A stretch of 64,000 nt of DNA from Bacilli bacterium (GTDB lineage: Bacteria; Bacillota_I; Bacilli_A; RF39; UBA660). Made by a program: the position numbers and the translations under genes. The notes under the pieces were generated by a model. The model was not told the origin of the DNA. It saw only the letters and a list, made by a program, of their open reading frames with translations, and did not search any database. Positions 24,092-35,608 of the stretch are shown piece by piece. The DNA lies in assembly GCA_017450205.1 (NCBI GenBank), contig JAFSVF010000009.1, forward strand, positions 62,001 to 126,000, read 5' to 3'. How positions within the stretch are numbered: position 1 is the stretch's first letter; every line of letters begins with the position of its first letter.

Positions 24092-26266
24092 ATGATGAGA
24101 ATATGCAAAAATAGAAAAATATTTGGTTTTACTTTAGTTGAATTACTTGCGATTATTATTGTACTAGCTATTCTTCTATTGATTGGAATACCTATAATTC
24201 TTAATATGATATCCGGTGCTAATAAAACTACTTTTATACAATATTATGAAAGAATGGCTAAGGAAAGCGATAAAAAATTTGAATCTGATATTGCACTAAA
24301 GAAAATAGATATGGATTCTTGTATTATTTATGATATAACTACTGACTTTGGAATTAGTAGTACTGGTAAATTTAAAGGTTATGTACTTCTTACAAGTGAT
24401 GATAAGAAATATATTACTCTTTATAATGATGAATATATGATTGTTGCTAAAGAGTATGTTAATAAGTTTAATCCTAATGATTTAGAAAAATATAAAGATG
24501 ATCAAGCTACAAGAGAAAAACTTACTAAAGAATATTTATGTAATGCAAGTGAGAACTGTACTACGTGTAATTATTTTAAAGAGGATAAAACTGTTGATGA
24601 AATAGTTAAACCACAATCAATTTCAAAATTGGTTAGTGGTACTAGTTTTAATAGTATAATTAAAACTTTAGCTAATGGTATTTCAACTGGCACTTATGAT
24701 GAAGATTATAAAATAAAGAAAATTAAATTTATTCCTAATAGTGATGATGAGTATGGAATAGATGTTTCTACAGAAGACTCTACTGTTAAAACTTATGCAT
24801 CATATGAAAATGGAATAATTTATTTAAAATCTAAAAATGACAAAATATATTTAAATGAATACTGTGCTTATATGTTTCATGATTTTATGGAATTAAATGA
24901 AATTGATCTAGAATATTTTGATTCTAGTTTAACTACTTCAATGTATGGTATGTTTGATAATCTTCCTTGTATTACTAAATTAAATGTTAGTCATTTTGAT
25001 ACTAGTAAAGTTACTACAATGACTGCTATGTTTATTGCGCTTGATAACCTTGAAGAAGTTGATGTTAGTAATTTTGATATGTCAAACGTAAAGACTGCTT
25101 TTGCAATGTTTTTTAGAGATGGAAATCTAAAAGAATTGGATGTCTCCAGTTGGGATGTATCTAATTTAGAGGATTTTACACAAATGTTTTTGGGATGCAG
25201 TAGTATAAAAACTTTAGATGTATCTAATTGGGATACGAGAAGTGCCAAAAAAATGGGTGGATTATTTGAGGAAATGAATAATTTAGAGTATTTAGATGTA
25301 TCTCATTTTAATACAAGTAAAGTAACTGATTTTTCTTATATGTTTGCAGAATGTGAAAAATTAAAATCTCTTGATGTCTCACATTTTGATACAAGAAATG
25401 CCACAAATATGACAGGGATGTTTGAATATTTAAGATCAATAGAATCTATTGATGTTAGTAATTTTGTTACAGATAATGTAACTGATATGCATGGTATGTT
25501 TAGATTATGTCAATCATTAAAGTCACTTGATGTTAGTAATTTTAATACAAGTAAAGTAACTAATATGTATGAAATGTTTAAATGGATAGAAAATGTTGAA
25601 TATTTAGATTTAAGTAATTTTGATACAAGTAATGTTACGAACATGGGTGAAATGTTTTATGATGATACTAAATTAAAACATTTAGATATTCATTCTTTTG
25701 ATACATCTAAAGTTAAGGATATGAGTTATATGTTTGCATATGTTAAATTTGATAAACTTGATATATCTAATTTTGATACAAGTTCTTTAGAAGATACACA
25801 TGCTATGTTTTATGATATGTATAATTTAACTGAAATAATAATTGGACCTAAATGGACTACTAAAAATGTAACTGATTTCCATATGATGTTTGAAGGAGTA
25901 CCTAAACTTAGATTTGATTTTTCTAAAAATATAAATACTAGTAGTGCAACTTGTATGGAGAGAATGTTTGGTAAAAATGATATGGAGATACTAGATCTTA
26001 GAGGTTTTGATACTTCAAAAGTATTTGATATGAATTTAATGTTCTGGGGTGTTGATGCTAAAGAACTAAGACTTGATACATTTGATTTTTCTGCAGTTCA
26101 ATATCATGGAGGTAATCCATATTATAATAGTTCTATTAATGGACCTATGTTTAGTCATATTAGTGATAGTATGGTTATTTATGTTAAAGATGAAGCAGCT
26201 AAAAAGTTTGTTGAAGATAGACTAGTTGAAGCGGAAAAGACTAACACAGTTATTATTGCATCTTAA
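24092..26266 (+). CDS. Prepilin-type leader fused to BspA-type (DUF285) repeats
   Basis: The N-terminus is a type IV prepilin (class III) signal: basic leader, then G12-F13-T-L-V-E17-L-L and a hydrophobic helix to about residue 40. Cleavage would fall between Gly12 and Phe13, with Glu17 as the conserved Glu5. From about residue 280 to 660 come tandem units of about 23-25 residues of the DUF285/BspA leucine-rich type, of the form LDVSNFDTSKVTNMxxMF. BspA-type repeats are surface adhesion modules. The combination suggests a pilin-like or pseudopilin-anchored adhesin. No prepilin peptidase or pilus assembly genes lie in the window. GGTGATAATA precedes the start. Confidence 0.85.
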   Translation: MMRICKNRKIFGFTLVELLAIIIVLAILLLIGIPIILNMISGANKTTFIQYYERMAKESDKKFESDIALKKIDMDSCIIYDITTDFGISSTGKFKGYVLLTSDDKKYITLYNDEYMIVAKEYVNKFNPNDLEKYKDDQATREKLTKEYLCNASENCTTCNYFKEDKTVDEIVKPQSISKLVSGTSFNSIIKTLANGISTGTYDEDYKIKKIKFIPNSDDEYGIDVSTEDSTVKTYASYENGIIYLKSKNDKIYLNEYCAYMFHDFMELNEIDLEYFDSSLTTSMYGMFDNLPCITKLNVSHFDTSKVTTMTAMFIALDNLEEVDVSNFDMSNVKTAFAMFFRDGNLKELDVSSWDVSNLEDFTQMFLGCSSIKTLDVSNWDTRSAKKMGGLFEEMNNLEYLDVSHFNTSKVTDFSYMFAECEKLKSLDVSHFDTRNATNMTGMFEYLRSIESIDVSNFVTDNVTDMHGMFRLCQSLKSLDVSNFNTSKVTNMYEMFKWIENVEYLDLSNFDTSNVTNMGEMFYDDTKLKHLDIHSFDTSKVKDMSYMFAYVKFDKLDISNFDTSSLEDTHAMFYDMYNLTEIIIGPKWTTKNVTDFHMMFEGVPKLRFDFSKNINTSSATCMERMFGKNDMEILDLRGFDTSKVFDMNLMFWGVDAKELRLDTFDFSAVQYHGGNPYYNSSINGPMFSHISDSMVIYVKDEAAKKFVEDRLVEAEKTNTVIIAS
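24979..26070 (+). repeat. Tandem DUF285 repeats within the coding region
   Basis: Recurring DNA units of roughly 70-75 bases encode L-D-V-S-x-F-D-T-S-x-V-T-x-M-x-x-M-F. Phrases such as GATGTTAGTAATTTT and ACAAGTAAAGTAACT recur. The copies are diverged, so this looks like an old protein repeat and not recent DNA expansion. Confidence 0.8.
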
Positions 26267-26314: not shown

Positions 26315-26332
26315 TAATTAGGGTAGATGGTT

Positions 26333-26689
26333 ATGAAAAAGAATAAACAAATATTAAAACATTGTCCTTTCTTTTATAAGATAATTAATTTTGATTATTT
26401 TGAAGAAGATGATTTATCTGAAAAATTAATAGATATATATCATAGATTTGTTTTTATGGTAGATGCAACTGATTCAAAACAAGTTAAAAGATTAGAAGAA
26501 TTAGATTTAATATTAAATAAATATATTGATGATTATTTCTTTAGAAAAGAGTTACGTGCTCAAATGGAAAATATAAAGGTACGTAAGGGTTCTGATATAA
26601 TGGATGCAATTGTATCTTGGATCATTGATGTATTTGATAATTATGAGGTTGGTTATACAAAGAATATTTATTTTTCGAGGTGGATATAG
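26333..26689 (+). CDS. Hypothetical protein, 118 aa
   Basis: Small soluble-looking helical protein, no family recognised. It has an acidic helix (YFEEDDLSEKLIDIYHRFVF) and a tryptophan-containing helix (DAIVSWIIDVFDNY). Start 26333 is preferred to an in-frame ATG six bases earlier because of the distance to AGGGTAG. It ends exactly where the next gene begins (TAG then ATG), so the two form an operon and may work together. Confidence 0.7.
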   Translation: MKKNKQILKHCPFFYKIINFDYFEEDDLSEKLIDIYHRFVFMVDATDSKQVKRLEELDLILNKYIDDYFFRKELRAQMENIKVRKGSDIMDAIVSWIIDVFDNYEVGYTKNIYFSRWI

Positions 26690-27577
26690 ATGGATGATTT
26701 TTATTTAGAAGAGACTAGCAAAAAAGAAATTTTTTTTAAAATATTTATTACTTTAATAATTGTTGCTTGTGCAGTTCTTTTAGGTATGTATTTAATTGGT
26801 AAAAATTCATTACATATTAATAAAGAAATAACTGTTGAAGTAGGAGATACTTTATCTAAAAAGGTAAGTGATTATGTTTTAGGTAAGATTAAGAATACTA
26901 CTGAATATAAGATTAAAGTAGATAAATTAAAACTTGGTGAAAAAGTAGAAAAAACTGGTGAATATAAATATACAGTTAAATATAATAATCATATTAAAGA
27001 AGGTGTTATTAAAGTAGTAGATACTAAAGCTCCTGTTGTTAGTGTTCAAGATTTAACTGTAGGTTTAAATGAAGACTATGATTTAGATGATTTTGTTACT
27101 TCTTGTGAAGATTATTCTAAACCTTGTACTATTCAACTTAAGGATGATAAAGAATATACCAGTGTAGGAACTTATGATATTACTTTAGTTATTAGTGATA
27201 CTTTTAATAATAAGACAGAAAAGAAAGCTAAACTTACTATTAAAGAAGGATATTCTTTAAAGAGTGTAAAAGAAAGTGATACAAATATTGTTAGCATGGA
27301 ACCTAATGTAGATAATTTTAAAGATGAATATATATTCAAAAAGTTTGATAAAGCATCTATGCCTGATGATGAAGAATCTATTGCAGAAGAATATTTATAT
27401 GAAATAATTAATGATGATATGTCAAAGTATATTCCAAGTGAATATGTTGGTTCTTCAATTATAAATCAAGAAACAATTGAGCTTTTTAATAAATATGGAT
27501 ATATAGTAGGATATGCTTTCAAAGTAAAATTATCTAATGGAGAAGAAACATATTTAAAAAATAATCAAGAAAATTAA
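26690..27577 (+). CDS. Membrane-anchored protein with Ig-like (DUF5011-type) domain
   Basis: Type II membrane protein of 295 residues: a short cytosolic start, one membrane span (about 16-38), then an outer region. Residues about 105-190 form an Ig-like bacterial domain of the DUF5011/Big type (VVDTKAPVVSVQDLTVGLNEDYDLDDFV, closing SVGTYDITLVISDTFNNKTEKKAKLTI), with two cysteines (SCEDYSKPC) that could pair. The C-terminal 100 residues are unassigned. Such domains usually mediate surface contacts. It directly follows the 118-residue gene. Confidence 0.75.
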   Translation: MDDFYLEETSKKEIFFKIFITLIIVACAVLLGMYLIGKNSLHINKEITVEVGDTLSKKVSDYVLGKIKNTTEYKIKVDKLKLGEKVEKTGEYKYTVKYNNHIKEGVIKVVDTKAPVVSVQDLTVGLNEDYDLDDFVTSCEDYSKPCTIQLKDDKEYTSVGTYDITLVISDTFNNKTEKKAKLTIKEGYSLKSVKESDTNIVSMEPNVDNFKDEYIFKKFDKASMPDDEESIAEEYLYEIINDDMSKYIPSEYVGSSIINQETIELFNKYGYIVGYAFKVKLSNGEETYLKNNQEN

Positions 27578-27600
27578 ATTTTTTCTTGATTTTTCTTTTT
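27564..27600 (+). terminator. Terminator overlapping the stop codon
   Basis: ATCAAGAAAA / TTTTCTTGAT (27564-27573, 27581-27590) followed by a T-rich run. The TTGATT inside it also serves as a possible -35 box for the next unit. Confidence 0.8.
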
Positions 27601-27613
27601 ATAAGAGTATAAT
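27586..27613 (+). promoter_or_regulatory. Promoter of the candidate structured RNA
   Basis: TTGATT (27586-27591) and TATAAT (27608-27613) with 16-base spacing, predicting a start near 27620. Confidence 0.6.
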
Positions 27614-27619
27614 GATTAC

Positions 27620-27785
27620 TTGTGGGTGTCATTTACCCGGAAGATAATAGATAACACTAAACACTTAATTATTTCTTTATACACAACTTGATCTTTATCT
27701 ATTAAAACAACTGAGACTATACAACTTTTGATCTTCCAAACAAATGATAATATAGATTCTAGAGGATTATCTCTAGTTTTTTTGT
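27620..27785 (+). ncRNA. Candidate structured RNA upstream of polC
   Basis: A non-coding stretch between a promoter and a terminator, about 165 bases. It can fold as follows: hairpin GGGT/ACCC (27624-27627, 27635-27638), whose loop TCATTT (27629-27634) can pair with AAATGA (27742-27747) as a pseudoknot; a nested long stem GGAAGAT/ATCTTCC (27639-27645, 27731-27737) and AATAGATAA/TTATCTATT (27646-27654, 27695-27703); and a terminator CTAGAG/CTCTAG at 27759-27776 with a T run. ACAACTT-type segments recur at 27683, 27708 and 27722. It does not match 4.5S, tmRNA, RNase P, T-box or TPP patterns that I know. It may be a small RNA or a leader controlling polC. Confidence 0.55.
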
Positions 27786-27800
27786 GAAAAAAATTAGTTT

Positions 27801-27846
27801 TTAAAGTAAACTTTAAGTATAAAAAGATATATAAATTTGGTAAAAT
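27801..27846 (+). promoter_or_regulatory. polC upstream region with palindrome
   Basis: The palindrome TTAAAGT-AA-ACTTTAA (27801-27816) is followed by A/T-rich sequence and TAAAAT (27841-27846), which could be the -10 of polC, 27 bases before its start. No good -35 is seen at 17 bases. Assignment is tentative. Confidence 0.35.
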
Positions 27847-27873
27847 AGTAAGTGATGAAATGGAAGATGTAAA

Positions 27874-30800
27874 ATGGATGATAAACTACTAAGATTTTTC
27901 AAAAAAATTGGTTTTAATGATATTATTTCTTTTGAAAATGCATCATTTGAATCATGCATTATACATAAGAAGACTAATGCTTGGACTATAAAAATAAGTG
28001 CACCTGAAATAATACCTGTTTCATCAATGATGAGCTTAAAGAAGTTATGTAGTGAAGGTATTGATGAAGTTGATACTATTAATATAGATATTAATTATGA
28101 ATCATTAAATCCTGATTTAGTTTTAGAGTATTTTAATTACTTCTTTAAGAATATAGTTAAAGATCAAATTGCTTTATCTGGTATTGATTATGATTTAATT
28201 ACTATTAGTGAAGATACTATTAATATTGATGTTACATCTGAAATGGAAAAGAAACTTATTAAAGCCGAAGAAAAGAAGTTATTATCTTATTTAAAAGATG
28301 TAGGTATTAATGGATTTAAAATAAAATGTAATATAAATGATGTTGAAAGAGCACAAATAAAAAAGATAATAAAGAAAACTAAAGAAGAAGTAGTAGTTCC
28401 TATTCCTATTATTAATCCAAATACTAAAGAACAAAAATGGGTACCTAAGAAAAAGGTTGAATATCAAAGAGAAGGTTTAGTACCAATTGTATCTCTAACT
28501 AAAGAAGAAAATGCAGTTAATCTAGAAGCTTATGTAATAGACACTGAAGGTATGGTTAGACAAAAGAAGACTGGTGGAGAGTTTTATTTAATTAATATTA
28601 AGATTTCTGATAATACTTCATCTATATTAGGAAAATACTTTGCTAGTGATGAAGAAGATTATATGAAAGTTATGAAAGAGTTAAAGAAAGGTAATTGGTA
28701 TCACTTTACTGGTCAAGTAAGAGATGATCAATATGCTCATGATTTAGTATTTAATATGAGAACTTATGAACAAATTGATTCTCCGATTGTTAAAAGAAAA
28801 GATGATTATCCAGAAAAGAGAGTTGAGTTACATGCTCATACTATGATGTCTCAAATGGATGGAGTAATTAATGAAGAAGAATTAGTTGATACTGCTATTA
28901 GATTTGGTCATAGTGGAGTTGCAATAACTGACCATGATTGTTGCCAAGCATTTCCACACGTTTTTGATAAAGTTACTAAATATAATAAGTCTAAGAAAAA
29001 AGAATTTGATGAAAAAATTAAAGAAAATGAAAAGAGTATCGAAGAGTTAAAAGAATCAGGTAATACTGAAGGAATAAAAGCTTTAGAAGAAATGAATGAA
29101 GAATTAAGAAATGAAAAGAAAAACTATGTTCCTTTTAAAGCTGCTTATGGTGTTGAACTTGATATGTTTGATTCATTCTTAAATGTTTGTTTCAATGCTG
29201 ATGATAGAAAATTGAAAAATCAAACATATGTAGTATTCGATACTGAAACAACTGGTTTTAACCCTGGTATTGGGGATTCTATGATTGAAATTGGTGGTGT
29301 TAAAGTTAAGGATGGAGAAGTAATTGATAGATTTGATGAACTTATTAATCCTGGTCACCATATTGATGAAGCAATTACTAGAGTTACTAATATAAGTGAT
29401 GATGATGTTAAGAATGCTGATAATGAAGAAAATGTAACTAAGAGATTTAAAGAGTGGATTGAAGATTTACCACTTGTTGCTCATAATGCAAAATTCGATA
29501 AAAATATGTTAGATATGGCATATTTTAAATATGATTTAGGTCCACTTAAAAATCCTATTATTGATACACTTAATTTATCACGTGTGATTAATAGAGACCT
29601 AAAAAGACATTCACTTGCTGCTTTAGGTAAAAACTATGGAGTAGATACTGGTGAAGGCGATAGTGATGAAGAAGAAGATAATAGTGAATCTAATGTATAT
29701 GAAGTAAAGAGTGAAGTAGGTTCTTTAATTCAAGATGTTAAGTTAGATGGAGAATCAATATTTAATATTACTTCTGTTGAAAATGAATTAAGAGATGCTG
29801 CTACTGAAACAGTTGTTAAAGGATATAAAAAAGAATACTCTTTAACAAAAAAATATATTGGTTCTAAAACAGAAACTATTAATTTTGAAGTATTTTTAAA
29901 TAGTGATGATTTTAGTGTAGTTTCTAAAACTGGAACAATTAAACTTAATCCAGCTGAAAATAATATTCCAATTATTATTACTAATGGATTGCAAGAATAT
30001 AAGATTGATTATTCTATTTATGTTGGACAACACCATGGTGCTGATGTCGACTCGGAAAATACTGCTTTAATATTTAATAGTATGTTAAAGCAAATTGATG
30101 GTATAAGCACTTTAAAAGAACTTAATGATTTAGGATTACTGGAAAGTATTGCTATTAAAAATAATCCTAGATATTTAAAAAATATTCAAGATATGATTTC
30201 TTATAAGAATTATATTAAGATTAAAATGGATGGGGATACTAATCCTGAAAATCCATTTGAAGATTATGGAGTAGAAGGTTATTCATGGAAGTTTGATTGG
30301 TGTCATAAAGATCATCTTCAAATGTATGAGAATATTCCTAGTGAATCATTTACTGAAAATATTGCAAATGATTATGATTCAATAAAGCATATAACTATTA
30401 TTGCTAAGAATCAAAAAGGATTAAAAGATTTATTTAAGATAATTAGTTTTGCTAATACTAATTTTATGAGTAGAAATGCAAGAATACCAAGAAGACTAGT
30501 TAATGATTTAAGAGAAAATTGCTTTGTTGGATCTGCTTGTTTAAATGGTGAAATATTTAATATTGCACTTACTCGTAATGAAGATGAACTTGTTAAAGCT
30601 ATTGAATTTTATGATTATATTGAGGTTCAACCACTTGATAATTATATGTTTTTGATTGATTCTCATGATATTAACAATAAGACTCATTTAGTTAAGTTAA
30701 TAGAAAAGATTATTAGATGTGCTAAAAACGCTGGTAAGATGATAGTTGCATCTGGTGATGTACATAATTTAAATCCTGAAGATGTACTTGCAAGAGAAAT

Positions 30801-33654
30801 TATTGTTAATCAAAATGTTCCGGGTAAAGGAAGACATCCTTTAGCTAGATGCTTAAAATCTAAAGCTAAAACTCCAGTTAATAAAACTAATTTAGAAGAA
30901 GCAATAGCTAAAGCTGAGAGAAACAGTACAGATATAACTGATTTTGATAAAAAGATTTTAAAATATGTATATGTTTTAAGTGGATTTAAATCTATTCCAA
31001 TTACTATTAATAATATTTTAGATATATATGCTACTCAAAAAGAGTTAAAGGCTAGTGATGAACTTGAACAAATTAAAAATGAAGAAGATAAAAAGTCTGC
31101 TATTAATAAAGCATTAGGTAAGTTTACTAGAAATGGTATTATTGGATTTGATTTTGAAAATGGTACTTATAAATTATTATCTAAGTATACTGATACTGGA
31201 TTAACTGTTCATGGAAGTATTCCTAATCAATTCTTTAGAACTACTAAAGAAATGTTAGATGCATTCTCATTTATTAAAGATAAAGATTTAGTTCATGAGA
31301 TGGTTATTGATAATCCTAATAAGATTATTTCTGAGTTAGAAGAAATTCAAGTAATAGATTATCCTGAAAAACCTTATTCTCCAATTATTGAACACTCACA
31401 AGAAATATGTAGAGATTTAGTATTTGATAAAGCTCACTCAATGTATGGAGATCCACTTCCTAGAAATATTGAAGAACGTATTGCTCAAGAATTCTATGGA
31501 GATAAGATTACTGATTTAGTTAAAGCTCACATGGATCAAGAATATCCTAATATGAGTGAAGAAGAAAAAGATAAAATGTTTTCTAGTTACTTACATGATG
31601 TAATTATGTCAGGTTATGATGGAGTAGTTAAGTTAAAGACTGAAGAGATTAAAAGAGATGAACCTGAGTTAAGTGATGAAGAGGCTATTGAAAAAGCTAA
31701 ACTTAAACTTACTGGTATCATTGGTGGTGGATTTGACGTTATTTATTTAATTGCACAAAAGTTAGTTAAGCACTCTAATGATGATGGATTCTTAGTTGGA
31801 TCTCGTGGTTCAGTTGGTTCTTCATTTGTTGCATCAATGATGGGTATTACTGAATGTAATGGACTTCCTGCACATTATTATTGTCCTAAGTGTTGTCATA
31901 ATGAATTTGTTGATTCTGAAGGACATGCTTATGCTGAAAAATATGCAAGTGGATACGATTTACCAAATAAGGATTGTCCTGAGTGTGGAACATTAATGAT
32001 TCACCAAGGTAATGACATGCCATTTGCAACATTCCTAGGTTTTGCAGGAGAAAAAGTACCTGATATTGACCTTAACTTTTCAGGATTAAATCAAGCATCA
32101 GCTCATGCTTATACAAAAGTATTATTTGGTACAGATAATGTTTATAGAGCAGGTACTATTGGTACAGTTGCTGATAAAACAGCATTTGGTTATGTACAAG
32201 GATTTTATGAGGATAGAGAATATAATGATTTAGTACAAGAAGCTAAAATGTATGGTGTTAAAGTTGCTTCTAAAGATGATTTAAAGAAGAAGAAACTTAT
32301 TAGATGTGATATTAGAGATGTTGAAGTTGAAAGACAAGCAATTGGATGTACTGGAGTTAAGAGAACAACTGGACAACACCCAGGTGGTATAGTAGTAGTT
32401 CCAGGATATAAAGATATTTGGGATTTTACTCCTTTCCAATATCCTGCTGATGATCCAACTGCTGAGTGGAGAACAACACACTTTGATTATCATAAGATTG
32501 AAGCAGACCTTCTTAAACTTGATATACTTGGTCACGATGATCCAACTGTATTAAGAAAACTTGGTGAGTTATCAGGAATTGATGTTAATGATATAGATCT
32601 TGGAGACTTAGATACAATGTCTATATTTACTAGTCCAAAAATACTTGGTAAATATACGGCTAGTGGTGAGGTAATTGATTTAGAACCTACTAGGTTAAGA
32701 GGATTAACTAAAGATGGAGTTAAGTATTGTCCAACTGGTACATTAGGTATTCCTGAGTTTGGTACACCATTTACTTTAGGAATGCTTGAAGATACTAAAC
32801 CAACTACATTTGGTGAACTTATAAAAATCTCTGGTTTATCACATGGTACAGATGTATGGCTTGGTAATGCTAAAGATTTATGTACTCCAAATGAAGATGG
32901 AGTTATTCAAGTTCCATTTAAGAATGTAATTGGTTGTCGTGATGACATTATGGTTAACTTAATTGCATGGGGACTTCCTGCTGGTAAAGCATTTAAGATA
33001 ATGGAGTTTGTAAGAAAAGGTAGAGCAAGTAAAGATCCTGCTGGATGGAAAGAACATGCAGAGTATATGAGAGAACATAATATTCCTGAATGGTATATTG
33101 AATCTTGTAGTAAGATTAAATACATGTTCCCTAAAGCGCATGCTACTGCGTATGTAACAAGTGCATTTAGAATTGCCTGGTTTAAAGTACATCATCCAAT
33201 TTGGTATTATTGTGCTTATCTTTCAATAAGAAGAGATAAATTTGATGTCGCATCTATGATTCAGGGTGAAAAAGGTATAAGAGATAAGATTGATGAAATG
33301 GATATGACTCCAAATCTATCGGATGTAGATAAAGAAAAAAGAGATACACTTCTTTTATGTTTAGAGATGTGTGCTAGAGGTTTCTACTTCAAAAATATAG
33401 ATATTGAAAAGAGTGAAGCTAAAGACTTTGTTATTACTGAAGATGGTAAGGGACTTATTATTCCATTTTGTGCGATTGATGGTTTAGGTGAAAATGTTGC
33501 AATGAAGATTATTGAAGAACGTAAGAAAATGCCATTTATTTCACAAGAAGATTTACATAATAGAGGTAAATGTCCAACAAGTGCTATGGAAAAACTAAAA
33601 GAACTTGGTGTATTTTATAATCTAAGTGAATCAAATCAATTATCGTTGTTTTAA
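27874..33654 (+). CDS. polC: DNA polymerase III PolC-type, unusually long
   Basis: Replicative polymerase of low-GC Gram-positives with its own 3'-5' exonuclease. Order: N-terminal domains, OB fold (about 215-310), PHP part with HAHT from 320, exonuclease starting FDTETTG (Asp456, Glu458), rest of PHP, then palm and fingers with GSRGSVGSS, a zinc finger (Cys1337 CPKC and Cys1368 CPEC region) and catalytic PDIDLNFSG (Asp1397, Asp1399). At 1926 residues it is about 480 longer than Bacillus PolC. Extra material is seen at about 370-425 (coiled coil inside PHP), 590-714 (acidic, beta-rich, just before the last exonuclease motif HHGADVDS), about 800-835, 995-1116 (possibly winged-helix) and after the DTMSIFTSP segment. 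Confidence 0.95.
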   Translation: MDDKLLRFFKKIGFNDIISFENASFESCIIHKKTNAWTIKISAPEIIPVSSMMSLKKLCSEGIDEVDTINIDINYESLNPDLVLEYFNYFFKNIVKDQIALSGIDYDLITISEDTINIDVTSEMEKKLIKAEEKKLLSYLKDVGINGFKIKCNINDVERAQIKKIIKKTKEEVVVPIPIINPNTKEQKWVPKKKVEYQREGLVPIVSLTKEENAVNLEAYVIDTEGMVRQKKTGGEFYLINIKISDNTSSILGKYFASDEEDYMKVMKELKKGNWYHFTGQVRDDQYAHDLVFNMRTYEQIDSPIVKRKDDYPEKRVELHAHTMMSQMDGVINEEELVDTAIRFGHSGVAITDHDCCQAFPHVFDKVTKYNKSKKKEFDEKIKENEKSIEELKESGNTEGIKALEEMNEELRNEKKNYVPFKAAYGVELDMFDSFLNVCFNADDRKLKNQTYVVFDTETTGFNPGIGDSMIEIGGVKVKDGEVIDRFDELINPGHHIDEAITRVTNISDDDVKNADNEENVTKRFKEWIEDLPLVAHNAKFDKNMLDMAYFKYDLGPLKNPIIDTLNLSRVINRDLKRHSLAALGKNYGVDTGEGDSDEEEDNSESNVYEVKSEVGSLIQDVKLDGESIFNITSVENELRDAATETVVKGYKKEYSLTKKYIGSKTETINFEVFLNSDDFSVVSKTGTIKLNPAENNIPIIITNGLQEYKIDYSIYVGQHHGADVDSENTALIFNSMLKQIDGISTLKELNDLGLLESIAIKNNPRYLKNIQDMISYKNYIKIKMDGDTNPENPFEDYGVEGYSWKFDWCHKDHLQMYENIPSESFTENIANDYDSIKHITIIAKNQKGLKDLFKIISFANTNFMSRNARIPRRLVNDLRENCFVGSACLNGEIFNIALTRNEDELVKAIEFYDYIEVQPLDNYMFLIDSHDINNKTHLVKLIEKIIRCAKNAGKMIVASGDVHNLNPEDVLAREIIVNQNVPGKGRHPLARCLKSKAKTPVNKTNLEEAIAKAERNSTDITDFDKKILKYVYVLSGFKSIPITINNILDIYATQKELKASDELEQIKNEEDKKSAINKALGKFTRNGIIGFDFENGTYKLLSKYTDTGLTVHGSIPNQFFRTTKEMLDAFSFIKDKDLVHEMVIDNPNKIISELEEIQVIDYPEKPYSPIIEHSQEICRDLVFDKAHSMYGDPLPRNIEERIAQEFYGDKITDLVKAHMDQEYPNMSEEEKDKMFSSYLHDVIMSGYDGVVKLKTEEIKRDEPELSDEEAIEKAKLKLTGIIGGGFDVIYLIAQKLVKHSNDDGFLVGSRGSVGSSFVASMMGITECNGLPAHYYCPKCCHNEFVDSEGHAYAEKYASGYDLPNKDCPECGTLMIHQGNDMPFATFLGFAGEKVPDIDLNFSGLNQASAHAYTKVLFGTDNVYRAGTIGTVADKTAFGYVQGFYEDREYNDLVQEAKMYGVKVASKDDLKKKKLIRCDIRDVEVERQAIGCTGVKRTTGQHPGGIVVVPGYKDIWDFTPFQYPADDPTAEWRTTHFDYHKIEADLLKLDILGHDDPTVLRKLGELSGIDVNDIDLGDLDTMSIFTSPKILGKYTASGEVIDLEPTRLRGLTKDGVKYCPTGTLGIPEFGTPFTLGMLEDTKPTTFGELIKISGLSHGTDVWLGNAKDLCTPNEDGVIQVPFKNVIGCRDDIMVNLIAWGLPAGKAFKIMEFVRKGRASKDPAGWKEHAEYMREHNIPEWYIESCSKIKYMFPKAHATAYVTSAFRIAWFKVHHPIWYYCAYLSIRRDKFDVASMIQGEKGIRDKIDEMDMTPNLSDVDKEKRDTLLLCLEMCARGFYFKNIDIEKSEAKDFVITEDGKGLIIPFCAIDGLGENVAMKIIEERKKMPFISQEDLHNRGKCPTSAMEKLKELGVFYNLSESNQLSLF

Positions 33655-33718: not shown

Positions 33719-35608
33719 ATGGAAGAATACAAGAATAAACTTAATCCAATACAATATGAATATATTTATCATGTATGTAAAAGATTAGCTCCTCATTTAG
33801 ATGAATTTGATAGTTATATAAAACCTGAAAAGAAAAATATAATTATTCTTAGATGCTTAATTGATTCGTTTTTTGAGATGGATAACTTTTTAGATTTTGT
33901 AAAAAGAAATTCTTTAATAGATATGATTGATGTACCTGCAAGCGAAAATGAAAAAGGCTTAAATAAAACTAGAATAGAGGTATCTGATGATTTTGAATTA
34001 ATTAAGAAAGCATTTCTTTCATTTAAATCATTATTCTTAGTAGATAGAAACATCTATGGAACACTATCTTATATGCCATATGACATTATTAATAATCATG
34101 TATATAGAAATAGAAATCATAAAATGGAGGAATATTTACCTAAATACTTTGAAGATAACATGACAAGTGATGATGTTCCATTTAAAACATTTATGTATGA
34201 TTTAGAAAATGAATGCAGTAATCAACAAAATAGATATGTAAATAATGAGAATGAAAAAATATCTAATATGTTTATTGATTCAACTTTATTTAATGTAATA
34301 TGTGCAACAATTAATTCATCTTATTATAAAAACAATAATACTAGGATTGGTTTTATAGAAAACTTCATACAAGAATTAAGAAGAAACGATAGTATTTTTA
34401 AAAGTGGTGATATTAGAGAATATGATTATAGAAAGATATCACCAAGTGTAACATTTCGAACTGATAGAAATTTTTCAAAACGTTTATCGTTAGAAGGTTT
34501 AAGAGATTTTTATAACTACGTATATTTTCCTGATAATAATCCAAGTATTAGTGATATGACTCTTGAAGAATTCTTAAACTATACACGTTTATATTATAAA
34601 GATGAATATGAATGTGCTTTAGATAATTGTTTGATTAACCCTGAAGACTTTAATGCGATAGTAGATAAATATCTTCCAGATAATAAAAATAAAGTAGCAA
34701 AAGTAGAAACTCTTGAAGAAAAATTAGAAAGAAATTATAAATTAGCTCAAAATATAGAACTAGAATCTTTAGAACCGTCATCGACAAATAAAATATTTAA
34801 ATATGGAGAGACTAGTTTAAAAGAAATAACCTCTATTATTAATGAAATAACAAGCTTAGTAACAAATATTAATACAAGTGAAAATATAATAAGCGAAACA
34901 CTTAATGGAGTAGTCCCAAGACTTACAATATTTGATAGATTAAGTTCGAAAAGTATGTCCAGAAAAATGGAAGAAAACTTTGAAAATACGAAATCAAACC
35001 TTACAGATATAGAGAGTCAAATAAGTAATCATATAGAAATTTACGAGTATTTAGTTAAACTGTATGATATAAAACTAAATATAATTAATAAAATGCAAAG
35101 AGTTATTAATTCGTATTTAAAAAAAACAGATACAGGACTAATTAAAACCGCATTAATAAATAAGAAAGATAATTTAAAGTTAAATGAAGTTAGTACTAAT
35201 ACTATGAAAGCTCAAGTAATCGTTCTTGCGAGTAATCATATGAATGTACTAAATATGCTTTATAGAACAAAAGAAACGTTTATCACAGTAATTGAAGGAC
35301 AAACATTAATTAATAGTAGTATTCAAGCAGAAAAAGCAGCACTTAAGAATATTAAAAATATTGTTAATGTATATGAATCTGCATTAAATAATGATTTTGT
35401 TTCAGCTTTTGAATTAATAAACAAATTAAAAAGTAGTGGGTTAGACCAAAATTCTGCAAATCAATTAGAAACTAATATTTCAAATATTCAAGTTTTATTT
35501 AGCCCAAGTGTTATTGATGAAGTAAATGAAATTAAACCAAGTACTTCAAATATAGAAATTGAGACAGATGAAAATTTAATTTTACCAGTAGGTCATGTAA
35601 GAGACTAA
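33719..35608 (+). CDS. Hypothetical helical protein, 629 aa
   Basis: No family recognised. The N-terminal 330 residues are mixed, and the C-terminal half (about 330-600) is predicted to be long helices with coiled-coil character (for example NFENTKSNLTDIESQISNHI). There is no signal peptide or membrane span. It uses rarer codons (ATA, TCG, CGA) somewhat more than its neighbours, which may mean weaker selection or transfer. It begins after GTGATTTT, and its stop codon lies in a terminator. Confidence 0.7.
   Translation: MEEYKNKLNPIQYEYIYHVCKRLAPHLDEFDSYIKPEKKNIIILRCLIDSFFEMDNFLDFVKRNSLIDMIDVPASENEKGLNKTRIEVSDDFELIKKAFLSFKSLFLVDRNIYGTLSYMPYDIINNHVYRNRNHKMEEYLPKYFEDNMTSDDVPFKTFMYDLENECSNQQNRYVNNENEKISNMFIDSTLFNVICATINSSYYKNNNTRIGFIENFIQELRRNDSIFKSGDIREYDYRKISPSVTFRTDRNFSKRLSLEGLRDFYNYVYFPDNNPSISDMTLEEFLNYTRLYYKDEYECALDNCLINPEDFNAIVDKYLPDNKNKVAKVETLEEKLERNYKLAQNIELESLEPSSTNKIFKYGETSLKEITSIINEITSLVTNINTSENIISETLNGVVPRLTIFDRLSSKSMSRKMEENFENTKSNLTDIESQISNHIEIYEYLVKLYDIKLNIINKMQRVINSYLKKTDTGLIKTALINKKDNLKLNEVSTNTMKAQVIVLASNHMNVLNMLYRTKETFITVIEGQTLINSSIQAEKAALKNIKNIVNVYESALNNDFVSAFELINKLKSSGLDQNSANQLETNISNIQVLFSPSVIDEVNEIKPSTSNIEIETDENLILPVGHVRD

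Follow-up and report, generated by a model that had tools for sequence, protein, structure and literature searches.

A probable gene for a small RNA upstream of polC in uncultured Bacilli, with repeated ACARC motifs in segments predicted to be unpaired

What occupies the 296 bases that separate the end of a gene for a 295-aa membrane protein (27577) from the start of polC (27874) in the genome of an uncultured Bacilli bacterium? The locus lies in a window of 64,000 nucleotides, i.e., the whole stretch of DNA that was analysed (assembly GCA_017450205.1, contig JAFSVF010000009.1, positions 62,001 to 126,000). From its letters alone, this gap had been proposed to hold a new structured RNA with a pseudoknot, which might be a small RNA, possibly a diverged 6S RNA, or a leader for polC.

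Signals of an independent gene

The 296-base gap, its own promoter and a good terminator are all present as the original prediction described them. The -35 element (TTGATT, 27586-27591) and the -10 element (TATAAT, 27608-27613) were found by sequence reading and in a consensus scan. With the 5' end placed from the -10 box and the 3' end from the terminator, 27620-27783 would be transcribed as one short RNA. Both marks of an independent small RNA gene, a promoter and an intrinsic terminator, are thus there, as consensus signals only, and the gap very probably contains an independently transcribed, standalone small non-coding RNA gene. The features of the locus are as follows:

27586-27613, + strand: promoter of the RNA, TTGATT-16-TATAAT (10/12 consensus matches; AGTATAAT kept in G001 and G007)
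27620-27783, + strand: putative non-coding RNA, ~164-165 nt (promoter and terminator signals, conservation)
27624-27638, + strand: P1, a 5' hairpin GGGT/ACCC with loop GTCATTT (folding prediction; invariant in three species)
27629-27634, + strand: 5' strand of P0, TCATTT, forming either a pseudoknot with P1 or a nested extension of P2
27639-27654, + strand: 5' strands of P2 (27639-27645) and P3 (27646-27654), stacked (complementarity, folding, shuffles)
27655-27694, + strand: large loop of P3; contains ACTAAACA at 27656-27663 and ACAAC-N-GA motif one at 27683-27691
27695-27703, + strand: 3' strand of P3 (complementarity, folding)
27704-27730, + strand: bulge of 27 nt separating P3 from P2; contains ACAAC-N-GA motifs two and three (27707, 27721)
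27731-27737, + strand: 3' strand of P2 (complementarity, folding)
27742-27747, + strand: 3' strand of P0, AAATGA (complementarity, folding)
27759-27783, + strand: intrinsic terminator CTAGAGGATTATCTCTAG followed by T7 (0 expected in shuffles; kept in G001 and G007)
27839-27847, + strand: extended -10-like box TGGTAAAAT (TGGTACAAT in G007), presumed polC promoter (sequence reading)

Of the neighbouring genes, one upstream of the RNA locus (24092-26266) encodes a 724-aa protein whose N-terminus is prepilin-like and which has six DUF285 (BspA-like) repeats, and two proteins flanking the locus (26327-26689, 120 aa; 33719-35608, 629 aa) had no Pfam match.

Predicted fold and competing pairings

Three complements had been reported in this RNA, and each proved exact and correctly placed: P0 (TCATTT, 27629-27634, with AAATGA, 27742-27747), P2 (GGAAGAT, 27639-27645, with ATCTTCC, 27731-27737) and P3 (AATAGATAA, 27646-27654, with TTATCTATT, 27695-27703). 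That they exceed chance held for the split helix, but not for the loop pairing by itself. Among 3000 dinucleotide shuffles of 27620-27756, a test designed after the structure had been seen, 0.1% contained a split helix of 16 bp or more, 10% a hairpin-loop complement of six bases or more, and 0.03% both; the overall folding energy of the RNA was ordinary relative to shuffles (z = -0.77). Thus the split helix P2-P3 is notable, while the loop pairing alone is not.

P0 and P2 together make up one imperfect inverted repeat of 17 bases (27629-27645 and 27731-27747), with arms TCATTT-ACCC-GGAAGAT and ATCTTCC-AAAC-AAATGA. When P1 is open, TCATTT/AAATGA can extend P2 as a nested stem, with a 4x4 internal loop between the two. 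Folding prediction for the full-length RNA gave 0.57 for the P1 hairpin versus 0.43 for the nested stem, and without the terminator 0.28 versus 0.72. Across the three species that carry close copies of the RNA, the full-length values were 0.57/0.43, 0.95/0.05 and 0.86/0.14, P1 being preferred in each; in G007 the nested-only prediction gave P2 a probability of only 0.26-0.36. Therefore the TCATTT/AAATGA pairing needs no pseudoknot, because these bases can also pair in a nested stem that competes with P1. Of the pseudoknot as originally proposed, the exact loop complement and the conservation of P1 and P0 stand, but P0 fits the nested stem as well. A form with P1 and P0 both made, which would leave a one-base loop across six pairs, is sterically plausible, and a pseudoknot in this RNA is possible.

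Conservation in two relatives

Within the genus, close copies of the RNA occur only in G001 and G007, each directly upstream of polC; a public genome collection held the core in two metagenome-assembled Bacilli genomes, which were the same two. From 27620 to 27692, 73 of 73 bases are identical in both relatives, against just 60% and 58% identity at polC four-fold sites and 81% and 54% in the spacer between the RNA and the polC leader; the wider polC 5' leader (27841-27873) is 91-97% identical. Judged by the four-fold sites and the spacer, the RNA is thus more conserved than would be expected of neutral non-coding sequence. All 52 bases assigned to pairs or to the putative pseudoknot are unchanged, versus 8 and 5 changes in the 85 unpaired bases in the two relatives, and the bulge (27704-27730) takes most of the substitutions. 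Comparison of the same gap in relatives, which had been suggested as a check for covarying pairs, therefore yielded conservation in G001 and G007, but covariation could not be counted since the stems are invariant among the three species.

A diverged RNA in two further species

In G005 and G009, the gaps before polC measure 296 and 297 bases, and each carries another RNA of 189-193 nt. In both species it has its own promoter and terminator, a hairpin at the 5' end, a closing helix of 11 bp and five ACARC motifs. These two RNAs fold better than shuffles (z of -2.2 and -3.6). Common to both groups are ACTAAACA, then T/A-rich sequence, then ACAAC, and the final ACARC motif reads ACAGC in four of the five RNAs. 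Local alignments between the groups were equalled by 0-9 of 500 shuffles under 1/-1 scoring and by 11-59 of 500 under 2/-3 scoring. The pattern ACTAAACA-N-ACAAC had 33 matches in 11 genomes; where reading frames were inspected, the matches lay in coding sequence, apart from the RNAs and one non-coding match (L144) that does not resemble the RNA. Covariance models of the two sequence groups did not recognise each other, and no joint model was built because the register of the outer helices was unreliable in a MAFFT joint alignment of both groups. Between G005 and G009, one pair change (U-A/U-G) was seen, in the terminator. The G005/G009 RNA is probably homologous to the window RNA, with its outer helices rebuilt, a case resting on moderate alignment scores and on position before polC. 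In both genomes (L036, L035) a polC promoter-like sequence, TTGTCT-17-TATAAT, overlaps the RNA terminator.

So far, the range of the RNA is narrow: five species of one genus, two of them by probable homology. In G002, G004, G006, G008 and G010, the polC gaps are 46-139 bases long and lack it, and no gap before polC in the other genera examined has more than one ACARC; in G031 and G003 the contigs end close to or inside polC, so that the gap was only partly assessable. Searches for distant homologues (model R1 on 145 family genomes and 11 genus genomes, model R2 on 60 relatives) returned only weak matches, and those that were read look protein-coding or unrelated. No convincing paralogue was found in the same genome. 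As a search pattern, ACAAC repeats alone were abandoned, being swamped by threonine-rich coding sequence. A phage or plasmid origin was likewise rejected: phage and plasmid records held no match, and viral contigs no exact match to the core.

Repeated ACARC motifs

Three recurring ACAAC segments had been noticed in the unpaired parts of the RNA; they are present at 27683, 27707 and 27721 and are predicted to be mostly unpaired. Shuffles of the window RNA are expected to contain 0.33 ACARC, and at least three occur in 0.2% of them. The longer motif ACARC-(1-5)-GA, defined after looking at the RNAs, is found in three copies each in the RNAs of G000 (the genome of the window), G001, G007 and G005 and in four copies in that of G009, as compared with 0.07-0.25 expected in shuffles; in all five RNAs this enrichment was reached by at most 0.03% of shuffles. 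Elsewhere in the 64,000-nt window, no cluster of ACARC-N-GA was found. The probability that a motif is unpaired was predicted as 0.64-0.99 in the window group and mostly 0.55-0.91 in the G005/G009 group, with one exception at 0.24.

A possible role in trans

The RNA most likely acts in trans, because polC is preceded by a separate promoter-like box and the RNA pairs with the polC start much as shuffled sequence does. The explanation that we favour would run as follows: i) the 5' hairpin and the long closing helix P2-P3 would hold out two large unpaired segments; ii) these segments would present three copies of ACARC-(1-5)-GA (three to four copies, and five ACARC, in the diverged homologues); iii) the intrinsic terminator would release the RNA; iv) on the model of CsrB-type RNAs, the repeats would serve as docking sites for an RNA-binding protein, which would be titrated or guided; and v) the RNA would act in trans and not on polC. 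Taken whole, the statement that a trans-acting RNA of ~164 nt presents ACARC repeats for multivalent binding seems to us evenly poised between right and wrong; the binding mechanism on its own is somewhat less likely than not.

CsrB/RsmY-type RNAs sequester proteins and are bound by CsrA/RsmA at GGA motifs. Like them, the window RNA is small and free-standing and, by folding prediction, repeats one short motif several times in its unpaired segments; unlike them, its motif is ACARC-N-GA and not GGA in hairpin loops. As to the binding partner, none of the 11 genus genomes gave an Hfq match, while five control genomes did, and KhpA/KhpB-type KH domain proteins are present in 11 of 11. A broader proposal, that of a new multivalent RNA class in bacteria without detectable Hfq, whose exposed ACARC-N-GA motifs titrate or guide a protein (with KhpA/KhpB as candidates) and whose helices evolve fast while the sites are kept, looks rather doubtful at present.

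Alternative readings

The repeated, exposed motifs of the predicted fold suggest protein binding, and antisense pairing is nearly as likely. As an antisense small RNA, the molecule might pair with mRNAs through the exposed CACUAAACACUUAAUUAUUUCUUUAUACACAACUUGAU and the bulge, its ACAAC repeats acting as seeds for GUUGU-type targets. Such a role is a real if minority possibility: the P3 loop is identical in three species, as a seed region would be, and the gene is free-standing with its own terminator, but Hfq was not found in the genus, and polC, the sole target tested, gave no support. Many Gram-positive small RNAs work without Hfq.

The leader for polC raised by the original prediction would be a cis-acting attenuator, either controlling read-through of the terminator or masking the polC ribosome site GGAAGAU with AUCUUCC. 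It is improbable, although the RNA always lies upstream of polC on the same strand in five species and TTTTGATCTTCCA (27726-27738) is 85% complementary to TGGAAGATGTAAA (27861-27873). Hybrid energies with the polC start equal those of shuffled sequence in five of five species; a promoter-like box stands between the terminator and polC in the same five and in relatives that lack the RNA; and in five members of the genus polC is present but the RNA is absent. The box in the window (27839-27847) was not returned by a plain consensus scan. Since polC apparently has its own promoter, which the terminator precedes, and pairing with its start is no better than shuffled, a leader is disfavoured.

PolC itself (27874-33654) is 1926 aa long; near relatives with a complete open frame have ~1917-1960 aa, and most other genera of the family ~1430-1650 aa, the extra length appearing between the exonuclease (453-592) and polymerase (1254-1553) domains.

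A short coding gene, in which GTG at 27626 opens a 21-codon frame MSFTRKIIDNTKHLIISLYTT, is very improbable. Identical DNA keeps the frame open in three species, and the absence of synonymous changes disfavours it (0 in 73 bases, against 58-60% four-fold identity nearby); moreover, its ribosome site would lack room after the presumed RNA start, and a matching frame was not seen in G005 or G009.

The diverged 6S RNA once considered, to which the length and the rod-like fold with an open middle could point, is rejected and keeps next to no likelihood, the 6S model (RF00013) giving no hit within 27400-28000, whether at gathering score or with E relaxed to 10, and full-length candidates, each under the gathering score yet carrying conserved 6S sequence blocks, lying at another locus in the genome of the window and in its two nearest relatives, G001 and G007 (E of 2.8e-5 to 3.1e-6). 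With 6S RNA the window RNA shares a size of ~165-190 nt, an independent gene and a predicted long closing helix; it differs in that it lacks a match to the model, and its genome has a 6S candidate elsewhere. The latter (G000:C21:9375-9546; L152:476-647) is full-length and diverged, scoring 33 bits versus a gathering score of 46.4.

Relation to known RNA families

The view that the RNA fits no common family agrees with Rfam 15, in which none of 4227 families matched the window RNA or the G005/G009 RNAs at gathering score. With conservation in relatives and its own promoter and terminator, this result supports the proposal of a new structured RNA gene. Orphan structured RNA motifs (PMC6429828, PMC8632094, PMC11109978, PMC8040213) are similar in being conserved intergenic RNAs of unassigned function; the main texts of PMC11109978 and PMC8040213 contain no mention of polC. 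The literature search turned up no description of such an RNA, supplementary motif lists lying outside its scope.

Given the narrow known distribution, the importance of the RNA rests on its binding partner. What the locus offers is an RNA family that seems not to have been described before, from a lineage of uncultured Bacilli whose genomes are small and in which Hfq was not detected, and the repeated ACARC-N-GA would provide a concrete motif with which to seek the protein that handles small RNAs in this lineage.
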